DNA of 62,317 bases from Myxococcales bacterium. GTDB lineage: Bacteria; Myxococcota_A; Polyangia; Polyangiales; Polyangiaceae. The stretch covers positions 1 to 62,317 of the forward strand of contig JAAZAA010000050.1 in assembly GCA_012514535.1 (NCBI GenBank), read 5' to 3'. The position numbers and the translations under genes are program-made. The notes below the pieces were generated by a model. The model saw only the letters and a list, made by a program, of their open reading frames with translations. It was not told the DNA's origin and did not search any database. Shown here piece after piece: positions 1,343-46,142 of this stretch (positions are counted from its first letter, which is position 1; the number at the start of each line of letters is the position of its first letter).

Positions 1343-2383
1343 TCAGTCGGCAGCGGTGACGCGGATGCCCACCTTGCCGACGTGCCCCTGGCTCGCGAGC
1401 GCCTGGAACGCTGCCACGCCGTCGTCGAGGGAGTAGGTCCCGTGGACGTGGGGCCTGAGGCGATGCCGCTCATAGAACTCCGCGACCCGGGCCAAGGTGG
1501 AGCGTGGTCCGGCGAGGACGCCCTGGATGCGGATCTGGTTCATGAGCACCGGCGCGAGGTCCAGCGGCGCGGATCGACCCGAGAGCACCCCGATGAGGCT
1601 GATGGTCCCGCCGGGGAGGATGGCGCGCAGGGAGTGCGCGAGGGTCTCCGCGCCGCCCACCTCGACGACGTGGTGCACGCCGCCCGTCGCCGAGCGGACG
1701 TGGCGGCCCCAGTCGGGCGTCGTGCGGTAGTTGATCGTGAGATCGGCGCCGAGCTCCTTCATCAGGTTGAGCTTGGCGTCGTCGCTGCTCGTCACCGCGA
1801 CACGGGCCCCGAGCGCGCGGGCGATCTGCGCCGCGAACACCGACACCCCGCCCGTCCCGAGACACAAGACCCACTGCTCCGCGAGATTCCCACCGTGGGC
1901 GGAGAGCTCGGGCAGATCGACCAAGGCCCGGTAGGCGGTCGCTCCAGCGCAACACAAGGCGCTCGCCTCGACGTCGTCCAGGTGCTCCGGCGCGCCGACG
2001 AGACAGCTCGCGGGCGCGACCAGGAACTCACACGCGGTGCCCGGCAGGGGGGCGCCCCAGGTGGCGCGGATGAGCTCTTTGCGAGGCGGCCCCGAGAGCC
2101 AGCGGGGCGCGAAGGCGGGGAGCACCCGATCCCCGACGGAGAGGCGCGTCACCGCCTCCCCCAGGGCGACGACCTCGGCGGTGGCGTCCGAGCAGGGCAC
2201 GAGCGGCAGCTGGAACCTCGGATCGTAGGTGCCGGCGACGACCCGCAGATCCCGGTGGTTGAGGGTCGTGGCCCGGATCCGCAGCAGCACCTCCCCCGCC
2301 GCGAGGCGGGCAGGATCGGGATCCGGGAGGTGTGCCAGGCGCAGGTGCTCGAGGCCGAACCGATCCAGGACCAGGGCGCGCAT
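1343..2383 (-). CDS. Zinc-independent MDR alcohol dehydrogenase / quinone oxidoreductase family protein
   Basis: A 346-residue medium-chain dehydrogenase/reductase. The N-terminal GroES-like catalytic domain holds NHRDLRVVAG and a GDRV turn. The Rossmann domain has the nucleotide-binding sequence GTGGVS and the later HHVVEVGG strand-turn. The typical structural-zinc cysteine cluster is absent, which fits the quinone-oxidoreductase-like branch using NAD(P)H. The length is normal. It ends about 70 bp upstream of the peroxidase gene on the same strand. The substrate cannot be inferred. Confidence 0.88.
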   Translation of the reverse strand: MRALVLDRFGLEHLRLAHLPDPDPARLAAGEVLLRIRATTLNHRDLRVVAGTYDPRFQLPLVPCSDATAEVVALGEAVTRLSVGDRVLPAFAPRWLSGPPRKELIRATWGAPLPGTACEFLVAPASCLVGAPEHLDDVEASALCCAGATAYRALVDLPELSAHGGNLAEQWVLCLGTGGVSVFAAQIARALGARVAVTSSDDAKLNLMKELGADLTINYRTTPDWGRHVRSATGGVHHVVEVGGAETLAHSLRAILPGGTISLIGVLSGRSAPLDLAPVLMNQIRIQGVLAGPRSTLARVAEFYERHRLRPHVHGTYSLDDGVAAFQALASQGHVGKVGIRVTAAD

Positions 2384-2711: not shown

Positions 2712-5402
2712 TCAGAAGAGCTGATGACGGAGCGGGTACAGCGCGACCTCGATGCGGTGGAGCAAGCGATAGGCCTCGGCCCACCCGGGGACGCGACGAG
2801 AGATCCTGTGAGCGAGCCAGGAGCGGAGCGGGTGCAGCTCGTCCAAGGGGAGCGCCGTGACGTCGACGCGGGTGGAGAGCGCCTCGAGGCTCTCGGGCGT
2901 CAGCTCGTCGGGCAAGCTCTCCAAGAGGCGGCGCGCCTCCGGCAGATCACGCCGATCGAGGGCGAGGTGGAGCAACGGGAACACGCGGCGGGGGGCGCGC
3001 CGCCACAGCTCCCCCCGGGCGGCCTCGTCCAGGGCGTCGACGCCCTTTCGGCTCACGAGCTCGAGCAGCGAATCGAGGGGCGCGAAGCGCGCGACCTCCG
3101 CCGACAGGGGCGCTCCGCTCTGCAGGAGCGCGCCGTATTGATGGGGCAGCAGGTGCTCCCAGGGCAAGGGCAGCTGCGCCGCGACGCGCCGTCGGATCCA
3201 GTCCGTCGGTGCCCCCCGCCAGAGCTCCACCACCAGCTTGCTCGGGGGATCGAAGTGACGAGGGAGCGCGCCGCGGGGATCCACCGCGTGCCAGAGCCGA
3301 CGGCAGAAACGAGGCCAGTCGAGCTCCCGGGTGGCGCACAGGGCCACGAGGGCGGGCAGCGCGTGGGGCAGCTCGTCGAGGCGCTGGAGCAGATCGGGGC
3401 TCAGGCGGTCGTCGGCGAGGGCGTCGGCGACGGCGGAGGGGAGCTCGAGGGGCAGCGGCGTCTCCGCGGCGGCTCCGACGGCGTGGCGCAGGGAGTCGAC
3501 CAGTAAGTAGATCGTGAGGGGCCACGGATGCCGGGAGGAGCTCGTCCCGTGGTGGACCTCGAGGGCGTCGTACCGGACGCTGCTGCGGTCGCGGATGGGG
3601 CTGGCGGTGCTCTCCTGCAGCAAGCGGAGCAGCTCCGGGTACACGTGCCGCCGCAGGGTGCGCGCCTCGCGCTCGGGGCGCGCCGACCGGAAGGGATCGA
3701 GCAGACTCCTGCGGGGGGGCGCGAGCTCCGCGAGGGCGTAGACGCCGAGGAGCCAGGCTCCGGGGTGCAACAGTGGCTCGGGTTCGTCGAGCTCCCGGTG
3801 GGTGATGCGGGGACGCGGCGGCGCGTCCGGCAAGATCAGCGCGAGGCGGTCCTGTTCGCTCACGAGATCGGCGATCAGATCCGCGGGGACGTTGCCGCCG
3901 CACGCCGCGGTGAGGCCGATCACGGTGGTGGCCGCCTCGACGGCGGCGGCCGAGGCGGGCTCCTCGGGATCGGCGAGCTCCAGGGCGGCGTAGGCGGGCG
4001 CGAAATCCCCGCGTCGAGCGCGCTGGAAGAGGGCGCGGATCACCCGAGGTGCGTGTGCCGGCCGCAGGAGCGCAGCACCCCAGGCGAACGCAGAGGTGGA
4101 CACGAGCTCGTGGACGGCGCGCGCCTGCAACGTGCTGCCGAGCCAGTGAGGGCGGAGCCGAAGGCGCTCCCCGTCGCGGACGAGGATCCGCGCGTGCTCG
4201 AGGGCGCGGAGCAGCTGGTAGCCCCCGGGCGGCAGCTTGCGCGCGGCGGCGGCGAGGTCGGCGCCGCGGAGTCGCTGACCCGAGTCGCGCGTGAGGGCCG
4301 CGCGCATCCACTCGACGTCGATGCCCTCCCGGTACTCCTGAGGAACGAGCGCCAGCCACTCGTCGAAGGTGCGCGGACGGTTCCACGGCTGGTCGCTTTC
4401 CGTGACGAGCTGTGCGATGGTTCCGAGCAACGCCGCGGCGGCGTTGCGGTTCAACCAAGAGCTAACGGTGGCCTCCTCGGACGACTCGGCAAGGCGCTGT
4501 CGCACGAAGCTCTCGGCGATCTCGTCCAGGGAGCGTCCGTGCAGCGTGCGGGGGCGGACCTCGTCCAACATGCCGAGCAGGCCCAGCGCGTCCCCCAAGG
4601 TGACCACCGCCTCGGAGGGCAGGGCGACGCGGCGCATCCAGGTGAGGGCGCGCTCCGGTTCGAACAGCCCGTCCGCGGGGAGCCGCTCCGCCACCCAACC
4701 GACGAGCTCCGGGAGGACGTCGTCGAGGGGCGGGGAGTCGATCACTTCCCAGGGCGGCTCCGTCGGCGGGTGCGCGAGGGCGACGCACACGGGGCGGGGC
4801 TCGGCGCTCAGCCGGGCTGCCCAGGTGCGCCACCGCTCGGCGGCAGACTGCGGCCCGTCCCAACCGGTGATCTCGAGGAACAGGGGGCCGCGGTCGGGGA
4901 GGGGCGCGCTCCTATCCGGGGGCCCCTCGAGGACCCGATGGGTCGCGAGGCCCCGGGCCTGGAGCCAGGCTCCCGCCAGGGAGCGCCCCGCGCCGCTCGG
5001 AGCACGCCAGGCGAGGCGACCCCAGGTGGCTGGCTGGAGCACGCGAGACGGGATGCCCGGGCACAGGGGCTCCTTCGTGAGGTCGAGCTCGCGCCCGTAC
5101 CGGAGGTCGTCCAGGCGCACGAGGCGCTCCGAGGGGGTGCTGCGCCGGACCGGCAGGGCCTGCCGCAGGTCGGCGACGGGGCGGTTCATGAGCTCCGCCA
5201 GGATCCGTTGTACGGGGATCCGATCCGCGAGCCACTCGAGGTCTTGCTCTCGGTCCAGCTTACTGAAGAGGGTGGCCAGGGAGCGCTGCTTCGGGCGGGT
5301 GTCTGCGGGCCAGTCCGGGTGCGCGAGCGCGGCAGCGGCCAGTCGGCCGAAGCTCGCGACCGGCGGATCCGACGTGCTCATGAGGTCGCGAAGCCAGCCC
5401 AC
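2712..5402 (-). CDS. Large protein of unknown function with degenerate P-loop and winged-helix-like segment
   Basis: I do not recognise this 896-residue protein. Residues 134-142 read APSGAGRSL, resembling a Walker A loop with Arg in place of Lys. LFLEIT (about 174-179) resembles a Walker B strand, followed by a hydrophobic strand (VCVALA) typical of P-loop ATPases. Further on, a segment starting GGYQLLRALEHARILV looks like a winged-helix domain, and the C-terminal half is Leu/Arg-rich helical sequence that could be repeats. This order is reminiscent of STAND-type NTPases, but that is inference. No signal peptide or membrane segment is seen, so it is probably cytoplasmic. The first start is GTG; an ATG seven codons in (5381) is an alternative, and neither has a good ribosome site. 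A nested palindrome sits directly upstream, and the divergent neighbour is an M50 protease. Confidence 0.7.
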   Translation of the reverse strand: MGWLRDLMSTSDPPVASFGRLAAAALAHPDWPADTRPKQRSLATLFSKLDREQDLEWLADRIPVQRILAELMNRPVADLRQALPVRRSTPSERLVRLDDLRYGRELDLTKEPLCPGIPSRVLQPATWGRLAWRAPSGAGRSLAGAWLQARGLATHRVLEGPPDRSAPLPDRGPLFLEITGWDGPQSAAERWRTWAARLSAEPRPVCVALAHPPTEPPWEVIDSPPLDDVLPELVGWVAERLPADGLFEPERALTWMRRVALPSEAVVTLGDALGLLGMLDEVRPRTLHGRSLDEIAESFVRQRLAESSEEATVSSWLNRNAAAALLGTIAQLVTESDQPWNRPRTFDEWLALVPQEYREGIDVEWMRAALTRDSGQRLRGADLAAAARKLPPGGYQLLRALEHARILVRDGERLRLRPHWLGSTLQARAVHELVSTSAFAWGAALLRPAHAPRVIRALFQRARRGDFAPAYAALELADPEEPASAAAVEAATTVIGLTAACGGNVPADLIADLVSEQDRLALILPDAPPRPRITHRELDEPEPLLHPGAWLLGVYALAELAPPRRSLLDPFRSARPEREARTLRRHVYPELLRLLQESTASPIRDRSSVRYDALEVHHGTSSSRHPWPLTIYLLVDSLRHAVGAAAETPLPLELPSAVADALADDRLSPDLLQRLDELPHALPALVALCATRELDWPRFCRRLWHAVDPRGALPRHFDPPSKLVVELWRGAPTDWIRRRVAAQLPLPWEHLLPHQYGALLQSGAPLSAEVARFAPLDSLLELVSRKGVDALDEAARGELWRRAPRRVFPLLHLALDRRDLPEARRLLESLPDELTPESLEALSTRVDVTALPLDELHPLRSWLAHRISRRVPGWAEAYRLLHRIEVALYPLRHQLF

Positions 5403-5404
5403 GC

Positions 5405-5447
5405 TGCAGGTTTAATGCATCCTGCATGCAGGATGCAAAAACCTGCA
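5405..5447. promoter_or_regulatory. Nested palindrome, likely operator with embedded promoter
   Basis: A perfect 22-bp palindrome (5416-5437, centre CCTGCA/TGCAGG) is flanked by a second inverted repeat, TGCAGGTTT at 5405-5413 and AAACCTGCA at 5439-5447. The result is four TGCAGG-type half-sites in 43 bp. On the minus strand a -35-like TTGCAT and a -10-like TTAAAC, 17 bp apart, lie within it and point at the 896-residue protein gene, whose first start codon is 3 bp away. The symmetry suggests a dimer- or tetramer-binding operator. The binding protein is unknown; the adjacent gene product is one candidate. The other side is 411 bp from the M50 protease start, and I see no gene in 5448-5858. 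Confidence 0.65.
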
Positions 5448-5858
5448 AGAGGGGCGCCGGGCTCGCGTCTTTTTCCGGAGGAAGAGGATCTCGACGAAGG
5501 CAGCTCGGGGGCCAGGGCGAAACCCAGGGAGCCCTCCGGTCCCTTCTTCGCGGACGGGCGGAGGGACTCGGGGGCCCCCTGGCGACGGCTGCTGCGCCGG
5601 GGGAGGCTCGTCTCGCGCGCCTTTCCGCGACGTCCCTGCTCCCTGGGGCTTCCCGAAGCCGGGGCCGGGGACCCTCGTCGGGCGGGCGGACGGGTCCACC
5701 GCGCGGGACTTCCCGCGAGGCGTTCGTGCACGGAGAGAGCGCGGCGAGACCGGTGGTTCCTCGAGCGCCGGCGAGGCCCGCGGCTCCTCGTCGTCGACCG
5801 GGCGGAAGATGCTGGGCCTCCTACCTTTCCGGTGCTACTGGCTACCCCCGGTTCGAGC

Positions 5859-6575
5859 ATGAACAGCAACTTCAGCCTCGCGAGTCTCGTGGTGTGGTAC
5901 GTGGTGTTCCTCTTCAGCACCACTTTCCACGAGTTCTCCCATGCCATCGTGGCGTACTGGGGTGGGGACAAGACGGCTCACGAAGGGGGACAGGTCAGCC
6001 TCGACCCCATGCCGCACATCCGCCGATCCCCCTTCGGGCTGGTGCTGGCGCCGCTCGTCACGTTCCCCCTGTTCGGCTGGATGATCGGCTGGGCCTCGGC
6101 GCCCTACGATCCGCGCTGGGCCGCCGCGCACCCCAAGCGGTACGCGCTCATGTCCCTGGCGGGGCCGGCGGCCAACCTGGTGCTCGCCCTCGTCGCTTTC
6201 ACCGCCATCAAAGTCCTGGTGGGAACTGGAGCGCTCGAGTACGCGCGGCCGACCCTGTCGAACCTGGTGCAGGCGCCGGGTGAGGAGGGCTACCGGTCAG
6301 CGATGGGTGCCCTCGCCATGGGGCTGTCGGTGATGTTGAACCTCAACATCATCCTGTGCCTGTTCAATCTGCTGCCGCTGCCACCCCTGGACGGGGCGAG
6401 CGTGCTCGAGGGGCTCTGGCCGCGCCAGGCGGGGACGTTCTTCGCGCGGATGCGGGCGACCCCTGCCTTCGGTTTTCTGGGCGTGGTGATCGCCTGGCAG
6501 GTGTTCCCCTACGTGGTCGGCCCCGCCCTCTACCTCGTGTACACGGCGCTGTACGGGCGCGCGCTGTTTCTGTGA
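5859..6575 (+). CDS. M50-family (site-2 protease-like) membrane metalloprotease
   Basis: A 238-residue multi-pass membrane protein. The zinc-binding HEFSH (HEXXH) lies in the first membrane helix, and the second conserved element LPPLDGA near the C-terminus supplies the third-ligand region of the family. This is the compact YwhC/M50B type without a PDZ domain. Such enzymes cleave transmembrane substrates and often act in regulated proteolysis; the substrate here is not evident. The ATG at 5859 was chosen because it starts directly before the first hydrophobic helix. The frame stays open far upstream, but that stretch is antisense to the 896-residue protein. It converges on the desaturase gene through a shared hairpin. 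Confidence 0.88.
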   Translation: MNSNFSLASLVVWYVVFLFSTTFHEFSHAIVAYWGGDKTAHEGGQVSLDPMPHIRRSPFGLVLAPLVTFPLFGWMIGWASAPYDPRWAAAHPKRYALMSLAGPAANLVLALVAFTAIKVLVGTGALEYARPTLSNLVQAPGEEGYRSAMGALAMGLSVMLNLNIILCLFNLLPLPPLDGASVLEGLWPRQAGTFFARMRATPAFGFLGVVIAWQVFPYVVGPALYLVYTALYGRALFL

Positions 6576-44183: not shown

Positions 44184-46142
44184 ATGGGGGCGCTCCGAAA
44201 GATCCTGACGTGCTCGACCCTGGGCGGGGGATTGGTCGCGTGCTCGGAGGCGGGGACCGCGCCGTTGGTGACGGAGCGCGGGGCTCTGCAGCGCGGCGCC
44301 GCGACACACATCGTCGCGACACACATCGCCGAGCCGCACGGCGTGCTCGAGCACGCCGTCACGGAGCACAGCGATCACCGCGCCCCTGAGCACGGCTTCA
44401 CGCAGCTCGGCGCCGCGGACTCGAGCGCGTGCGGGCGCGCGTTTCTGCCCATCCCGTCCATCCAGGGGAGAGGCAGCAGCTCGCCCTACCGCGGTGAAGA
44501 GGTGACCACGGAGGGAATCGTCGTCGGGAGCTTCCAGGGAGCGGAGCGCCTGCGGGGCTTCTTCTTGCAGGATCCGACGGGTGACGGGGATCCGGAGACC
44601 TCCGACGGCGTCTTCGTGTTCGACGGCGACGGCGGAGCGCTCGGCGAACGGACCGAGGGGGAGCGGCTGCGCGTCACGGGGGTCGTGAGCGAGTACTTCG
44701 GACAGACGCAGCTCACGCAGCTGCGAGACGTCACCTCCTGCGGCCGCGGCTCGGTGCCGATCAGCCCGTTCGAAGGGCCGCTCGAGCTCGATCGCCTCGA
44801 GGCCATCGAGGGCATGCGCGTGCGCTTCGAGCAGCCTCTCACGGTCGTCGACTCTTGGGGGCTCGGGAGCTACGGAGAGCTCTTGCTGGCGGCAGGCGGA
44901 CGACCCTGGTGGGGCGAGGAGCCCGGCCTTCTCGGAGCCCTCGTCCTCGACGACGGCAGCGATCGGCGGGATCCGCGCCCCGTGCCCTACCTCTCGGGAG
45001 AGCGGACCGTGCGCTTGGGGGACCGCGTCGTCGGTCTGGAGGGAGTCCTCGGCTTCGCTTACGGACACTTTCGGGTGCAGCCGACGGGGGTGGTCGCGTT
45101 CGAGGAGAGGAACGCGCGGCCGCCAGCGCCCCCGCGCGTCGGGGGCCTGCGGATCGTCACCCTGAACCTCGACAACTACTTCGTCGATCTGGGCTCGCGG
45201 GGGGCCGCTGACGAGGAGGAGCTCGCCCTGCAGCGCAGCAAGCTGGCGCGCACGATCCTCGCCTTGAACCCGGACATCGCAGGTTTGGTGGAGCTGCAGA
45301 ACGACCGGGGCGCGGCGACGGAGGATCTCCTGGCCGCCCTGGCGACGGAGCGCGGTGGAACTGCCTACGGAGTCGTGCCCCTCCCGCCGCTCGGCGGCGA
45401 CGCGATCCGCGTGGGCATCGTCTATGCGAAGGGGCGCGTCACGCCTCTCGGCGCCCCCATCTTCTCCCGGGATCCGGTTCATCTGCGGCCGCCGGTCGCG
45501 CAGACGTTCGCCTGGGGGACACGTCGCCTCACGGTGGCCGTCGCCCACTTCAAGTCCCGGAGGTGCAGCGGCGCCAGCGGTGCGGATCTCGAGGGGGAGG
45601 AGGGGTGTTTCGCCGAGCAACGTCGGCGTGAGGCGCGGAGCGTCGTCGGCTTCTTGCGGGAGGCGCAGCGTCGTGCGGGTGACAGCGCCCTCGTGCTGGT
45701 GGGCGATCTGAACGCCTACCCCGGCGAAGGGCCGCTGGAGGTGCTCACGGCAGCGGGTCTGAGCTCCTTGCCCGCGGGCGCTCTGCCCACGGGCGCCCTG
45801 CCGGCGGGCGCTCTGCCGGCGAGTCCGGGCTTCGACGACGCAGGGCGTGCACCGCTCTACTCGTACGTGTTCGAGGGGAGGGCGGGTCTGATCGACCACG
45901 TGCTCGGCACGGGAGCGGTGGAGGCGAGGCTCCTGGGGGGAGGCGTCTGGCACGTCAACGCGGACGAACCCGCGGTGTTGCGAACCTTGGCGCTCTCTGG
46001 AGAGCGGCCCGAGGAGTGGCAGACCCCCTACCGCTCCTCCGATCATGATCCCGTGTACGTCGACCTGGGGATCCCCGAGGAGGAGGGATGTGGAGCGCAT
46101 CTCCCTGGCCGTCCTGCCGGCGGCCTTCCCGGAGACGATTGA
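44184..46142 (+). CDS. ExeM/NucH-like extracellular endonuclease/exonuclease/phosphatase lipoprotein
   Basis: A 652-residue secreted protein. It begins with a lipoprotein signal (lipobox LVACS). The N-terminal half contains an OB-fold-like module (EEVTTEGIVVGSFQG to GFFLQDPTGDGDPETSDGVF) typical of ExeM-type nucleases. The C-terminal half is an endonuclease/exonuclease/phosphatase domain with RIVTLNLDNYF, ADIAGLVELQND-like NPDIAGLVELQND, VGDLNAYPGEGP and the terminal SSDHDPVYVDL. These supply the metal-binding Glu, catalytic Asp-Asn and His pairs. It probably degrades extracellular DNA or a phosphodiester. A reiterated PAGALPTGAL segment lies at about residues 531-546. Confidence 0.88.
   Translation: MGALRKILTCSTLGGGLVACSEAGTAPLVTERGALQRGAATHIVATHIAEPHGVLEHAVTEHSDHRAPEHGFTQLGAADSSACGRAFLPIPSIQGRGSSSPYRGEEVTTEGIVVGSFQGAERLRGFFLQDPTGDGDPETSDGVFVFDGDGGALGERTEGERLRVTGVVSEYFGQTQLTQLRDVTSCGRGSVPISPFEGPLELDRLEAIEGMRVRFEQPLTVVDSWGLGSYGELLLAAGGRPWWGEEPGLLGALVLDDGSDRRDPRPVPYLSGERTVRLGDRVVGLEGVLGFAYGHFRVQPTGVVAFEERNARPPAPPRVGGLRIVTLNLDNYFVDLGSRGAADEEELALQRSKLARTILALNPDIAGLVELQNDRGAATEDLLAALATERGGTAYGVVPLPPLGGDAIRVGIVYAKGRVTPLGAPIFSRDPVHLRPPVAQTFAWGTRRLTVAVAHFKSRRCSGASGADLEGEEGCFAEQRRREARSVVGFLREAQRRAGDSALVLVGDLNAYPGEGPLEVLTAAGLSSLPAGALPTGALPAGALPASPGFDDAGRAPLYSYVFEGRAGLIDHVLGTGAVEARLLGGGVWHVNADEPAVLRTLALSGERPEEWQTPYRSSDHDPVYVDLGIPEEEGCGAHLPGRPAGGLPGDD
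44338..44359. repeat. Perfect 22-bp palindrome inside the ExeM-like gene
   Basis: ACGGCGTGCTC/GAGCACGCCGT is perfectly self-complementary over 22 bp, near the 5' end of the coding sequence, encoding part of the segment after the lipobox. It could be an mRNA hairpin or protein site, or chance in GC-rich DNA. Confidence 0.6.

Follow-up and report, generated by a model that had tools for sequence, protein, structure and literature searches.

Among bacterial STAND proteins, XssQ of Synechocystis carries an N-terminal HTH and recognises short sites, single or in tandem (consensus AAGTTXXAC), upstream of genes; acting downstream of a two-component system, it activates an exopolysaccharide cluster (PMC8205485). 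The controller proteins of restriction-modification systems offer a second precedent, since they occupy paired palindromic sites before their own gene, in the form CTAAG-N5-CTTAG and separated by an 18-bp spacer (PMC4321490). In myxobacteria, the operators of CarH and CarA are built from tandem 11-bp repeated half-sites and have a plastic design (PMC9304148).

The locus described here shares something with each of these systems. It consists of a gene for an 896-residue protein and a 43-bp element immediately in front of it. Like XssQ, the protein has a (predicted) N-terminal HTH on a STAND module, and we liken the two by architecture; the sites of XssQ are of the AAGTTXXAC kind and no autoregulation is mentioned in the portion of the XssQ report used (PMC8205485), whereas the sites here are built on TGCA and the control is putatively exerted by the protein on its own gene. 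The N-terminal model resembles the Cro/CI-type HTH of the controller proteins C.Csp231I and C.BclI, but these are small stand-alone HTH proteins that lack a NACHT module and have a restriction endonuclease under their control. The predicted NACHT/STAND core fold of the 896-residue protein recurs in bacterial NACHT proteins and NLRs, such as bNACHT25 and NLRC4, but their N-terminus is a killing or signalling effector where ours is a predicted DNA-binding domain, and unlike them most members of the present family have arginine in place of the Walker A lysine. The CarH/CarA operators have similar 11-bp repeats, although motif, regulator family and target genes all differ from those found here. 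As a working analogy, one might picture controller-type paired operators placed on a NACHT-like sensor of the XssQ kind.

The element in front of the gene

The putative compound operator lies at positions 5405 to 5447 of the window, by which we mean the whole stretch of 62,317 nucleotides that was analysed, and reads TGCAGGTTTTTGCATCCTGCATGCAGGATGCATTAAACCTGCA on the gene strand, which is the reverse strand. Only 2 bp (GC) separate it from the GTG start codon (5402-5400) of the 896-codon gene; an earlier sequence-only reading of this DNA had noted the adjacency and had given the gap as 3 bp. The element contains six TGCA in all, at offsets 0, 10, 17, 21, 28 and 39 of the gene strand, giving the layout TGCA-N6-TGCA-N3-TGCATGCA-N3-TGCA-N7-TGCA. 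The operator core, TGCA-N3-TGCATGCA-N3-TGCA, is a perfect 22-bp palindrome (TGCATCCTGCATGCAGGATGCA, 5416-5437), with a left outer arm TGCAGGTTT at 5405-5413 and a right outer arm AAACCTGCA at 5439-5447. There are four TGCAGG half-sites (5405-5410; 5421-5426, reversed; 5427-5432; 5442-5447, reversed), and palindrome, arms and half-sites are all present as the sequence-only reading had described them. The half-sites form two inverted repeats, each a putative dimer site: a start-proximal TGCAGG-N10-CCTGCA at 5405-5426 and a distal TGCAGG-N9-CCTGCA at 5427-5447.

Two further claims of that reading, that symmetry of this size is rarely due to chance and that the element overlaps a predicted promoter, were not borne out. 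Of 60 dinucleotide shuffles, 7 gave a perfect palindrome of at least 22 bp somewhere in the shuffled window, and we have rejected the palindrome as a significant feature on that ground; a sigma-70 consensus scan of positions 5200 to 6000 returned no promoter. The window holds another perfect 22-bp palindrome at 44338-44359, around CGGCGTGCTCGAGCACGCCG, in GC-rich and possibly coding DNA; it is of a size to be expected by chance. What is not random in the site is the clustering of six TGCA within 43 bp, not the 22-bp symmetry: no other place in the window has more than three. The palindrome is present in a single copy in the 5.77-Mb genome, even when as many as three mismatches are allowed, and neither inverted repeat (TGCAGG-N9/10-CCTGCA) has a further copy there, so the many unrelated copies that the sequence-only reading had named as counting against it were not found.

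Conservation and linkage to one gene

Relatives of the 896-residue protein are present in 29 of the 108 genomes of the same family. A single-protein search of the contigs gave no match; an alignment-based search of them yielded 20 named myxobacterial loci, which belong to Polyangiaceae and to other Myxococcota metagenome-assembled genomes. Because the orthologous proteins (Polyangiaceae) are about 27-44% identical, the DNA upstream of their genes would be expected to be randomised unless it is under selection. In the 200-bp upstream regions of the 28 orthologues for which these were readable, the distances between TGCA peak only at 4, 7, 10/11, 17/18, 21/22, 28/29 and 39 bp, where they exceed the shuffles roughly 20- to 65-fold, and other distances are nearly absent; pairs 11 bp apart, for example, number 24 against an expected 0.37. 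A single layout, with TGCA at 0, 10, 17, 21, 28 and 39, yields these distances. An array matching at least 19 of the 24 letters of this layout was found in 19 of the 28 upstreams, in the same orientation to the gene in 17 of those 19, and three loci (the window, L021 and L032) match all 24. None of 1120 shuffled upstreams reached 19 letters (maximum 17), and random sets of spacings brought a mean of 0.14 loci, and at most 8, to that level. The consensus of the element is TGCATnATTTTGCATnATGCATGCATCATGCAnTnTTGnTGCA. Its distance from the start codon varies by locus from 44 to 185 bp, and its relation to the core promoter thus varies between loci as well. The full array is absent from 9 of the 28 upstreams, and L008 has nothing recognisable. 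The conserved object is the array of TGCA sites, and the perfect palindrome, which the sequence-only reading had proposed to look for beside orthologues, is particular to this genome. In L020, positions 1434-1474 hold a variant, TGCATCTCGTGCATTATGCGTGCTTAATGCACGAGATGCA, with a longer inverted repeat and TGCA spacings unlike the consensus.

The three letters beside each TGCA agree within loci more than they do between loci: the flanks are GG in the window, AC-type in L032 and T-type in L033. For the four half-sites together this agreement has P 0.001, and for the inner dyad P 0.0023-0.0045, values that kinship among the loci may inflate. Such co-variation would be expected if one protein reads all four half-sites, the binding itself being putative. 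Geometrically, the element comprises a 21-bp and a 22-bp inverted repeat centred two helical turns apart; it can alternatively be parsed into 11-bp repeats arrayed over the two strands.

Profile searches link the element to this gene. R1, a sequence-only model of the element which matches its own building sequences by construction, was run against a phylum-wide sample of 377 genomes; at E<=0.001 it matched 7, all of which have the gene, and no sampled phylum genome without the gene had a match at that threshold. At E<1e-4, all matches in the family except one are upstream of the gene. A held-out test on 17 loci (83 kb) that had not been used for R1 gave 12 matches, every one of them just upstream of the gene; one of the 12 is at L132, a held-out homologue from another family of the phylum, where the upstream sequence reads TGCACGCATGATGCACGCATCATGCATTCGGCAACCATGCATGCATCATGCA. 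The best match in the entire genome lies at the gene in three held-out genomes (G121; G149, from another family; and G034). Four others (G105, G103, G414 and G289) have weak matches only, away from the gene, and a further eight have no match, so R1 does not cover every member. When R1 was used to search the family for a regulon, few and mostly weak sites appeared beyond the gene. The strongest site away from the NACHT-like gene is G079:C457:47864-47901 (L066 3865-3902; E 3.4e-5), which is close to the end of a contig and follows an ABC-transporter-like gene; no target could be tied to it, and this second copy is possibly a relic or marks a second target. Additional matches in G081 and G073 are weaker. 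In the 130 bp preceding the gene, distant homologues have repeats of other sequence, with GCATAG recurring at intervals of about 11 bp in L129 and CCATGATGG in L131; judged by eye, these suggest that the site drifts with its binder.

The predicted HTH-STAND protein

The gene (2712-5402, reverse strand, GTG start) encodes a protein for which we predict an XRE-like HTH, a degenerate NACHT/STAND NTPase and a helical C-terminal part. The start codon is correctly placed, since the orthologues all begin at the same MGWLR (MGWLRDLM-like). The protein has no sequence match in Pfam, NCBIfam or PDB, and we found no description of its family in the literature. In an AlphaFold2 model built from 21 sequences (pLDDT 79.9), residues 88-602 are closest to NACHT proteins, with NLRC4 (Z 13.2, rmsd 5.0, 318 aligned) followed by NLRP3, NOD2 and NLRP9; the top Foldseek matches are Avs3 and 6mfv (STAND). 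The model thus contains a predicted NACHT-type nucleotide-binding fold with a winged-helix part, followed by a helical C-terminal part of lower model confidence. Because this assignment comes from the fold, with no match to a curated NACHT, NB-ARC or AAA family, we call the protein NACHT-like. The sequence-only reading had spoken of an unknown large P-loop-like protein. By alignment, the Walker-A-like loop is at residues 132-143 (WRAPSGAGRSLA; 4974-5009, reverse strand). In most members it is APSGAGRS/T-like, as against the usual GxxxxGK[ST], and in L008 and L011 it is lost. The arginine that replaces lysine in most members makes ATP hydrolysis uncertain, and the sequences suggest a NACHT-like protein without ordinary ATP hydrolysis.

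The N-terminal residues 1-85 (5148-5402, reverse strand) are predicted to form a Cro/CI (XRE)-type HTH domain, in which the HTH itself is likely made up of helices 18-27 and 39-50. When residues 1-94 were modelled alone (pLDDT 88), the structural matches listed were Cro/CI-type HTH domains throughout, with no other fold among them: CylR2 (Z 7.0, rmsd 2.4 over 62), RghR (6.8), C.Csp231I (6.6), DdrO (6.3) and C.BclI (6.1), and further NGO0477, cyanase and C.EcoT38IS. Foldseek matches for this domain were weak (E > 3), and it has no Pfam HTH match and no PDB sequence match. The assignment is consistent with the residues conserved in the putative recognition helix (R40, S41 and L42, and S47 to R51), and on the strength of the models a five-helix Cro/CI-type HTH is likely.

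Probable autoregulation, its alternatives and the gene neighbourhood

By fold, then, we class the protein as STAND/NACHT-like, and its upstream site as a probable autoregulatory operator; neither domain of the protein is confirmed by curated sequence families. We think there is a good chance that the element serves as an autoregulatory operator of the gene it precedes, with either sign of control, activation included. The Cro/CI-type HTH predicted at the N-terminus of this P-loop STAND/NACHT-like product makes self-binding likely. Conservation, linkage to the gene, near-uniqueness and the predicted folds come directly from the analysis; the identity of the binder, its stoichiometry, the sign of the control and the signal are matters that we infer. 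In the scheme we propose, a protein that joins a Cro/CI-type HTH to a nucleotide-binding module of NACHT-like kind and to a helical sensor at the C-terminus would bind TGCA-NNN half-sites as dimers; the 21- and 22-bp inverted repeats, arranged head to tail and two turns apart, would allow at least two dimers to cooperate on the same face of the helix; once bound, the protein would cover the start region of its own gene, most likely repressing it; and a signal, together with the nucleotide state, would change oligomerisation such that the promoter is released or activated. In both the window and L012 the element directly adjoins the start codon, and Cro/CI-type regulators commonly repress themselves; we therefore favour repression. 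The sequence-only reading had likewise suggested cooperative binding of a repressor, possibly the gene product itself, and this suggestion is supported: it withstood the two refuting conditions that the reading had set, since the array is kept upstream of orthologues and other genomic copies are scarce, and it has gained from the predicted HTH. Counting against autoregulation are the 9 upstreams that lack the full array, the varying distance to the start codon, an HTH resemblance that is structural and goes no higher than Z 7.0, and the fact that a regulator with essentially one target, itself, is unusual. We also entertain, as a rather improbable extension, the idea that the DNA of its own promoter serves the NACHT-like protein as a platform for assembly: the six TGCA in helical register would nucleate a higher oligomer, ligand-driven oligomerisation and transcription of a single target (itself) would be one event, and specificity would drift at each locus along with the site.

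The sign of the control might be the reverse of the one we favour, with the protein binding upstream of or over the -35 and switching on its own gene and possibly the dehydrogenase described below. XssQ, also a STAND protein with an N-terminal HTH, activates its targets through sites that occur singly or in tandem (PMC8205485). Several orthologues, moreover, have the element 60-185 bp ahead of the start. Such activation is conceivable but somewhat unlikely, given the self-repressing habit of Cro/CI-type regulators and an element that, in the window and in L012, occupies the position of a repressor site. The 896-residue gene could instead be controlled by a different, unlinked transcription factor, to which the extra matches in some family genomes (G079:C457, and the weaker ones in G081 and G073) would lend some weight. 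One would normally expect such a factor to act on further genes and to be retained where the NACHT-like gene is missing, yet the sampled phylum genomes without the gene have no match at E<=0.001; the flank letters drift coherently per locus, as expected of a binder encoded in cis, and the protein has a predicted HTH of its own. We regard an unlinked factor as unlikely.

Neither nucleic acid structure nor an operator of the myxobacterial CarH type accounts well for the site. For a leader RNA hairpin or a DNA cruciform, acting at the level of transcript or DNA structure, speaks the fold of the gene strand in the window, at -37.5 kcal/mol (z -7.0). Among orthologues, however, 31 of 57 is the full count of complementary inner letters, and co-variation is lacking in the outer arms (P 0.16-0.21), the conserved feature being instead the asymmetry of 10- and 11-bp spacing. 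We have rejected the RNA hairpin for its unconserved pairing and arms that do not co-vary, and consider action through structure very improbable. An operator for a MerR photoreceptor of the CarH/LitR type would have the 11-bp spacing in common with the element (PMC9304148). Its repeats, however, are nnnnTnnACAn and not TGCA, and are found at carotenoid genes (PMC9304148), and no MerR or B12 domain was found in the 896-residue product (no Pfam/NCBIfam match); with neither motif nor domain fitting, we rejected this explanation, which we find scarcely credible.

The locus defines a Myxococcota family that has no Pfam or NCBIfam model, with a predicted HTH and a NACHT-like core, along with its probable operator, and it provides a system for asking how a STAND/NLR switch couples to transcription. 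A site that is short, that varies by locus and that has hardly any further copies in a genome makes the co-evolution of binding and specificity directly testable.

We considered and rejected a mobile or defence gene: the 896-residue gene has no match in phage or plasmid collections and no PADLOC family above noise, and its M50 peptidase and dehydrogenase neighbours are syntenic in many loci; it may still have a defence role. The M50 peptidase gene (5859-6575, forward strand) stands divergently upstream of the NACHT-like gene in 11 of 27 loci. A zinc-binding alcohol dehydrogenase-like gene (1343-2383, reverse strand) lies downstream of it in the same orientation in 14 of 27, sometimes within 60 bp, and may be part of the downstream output.
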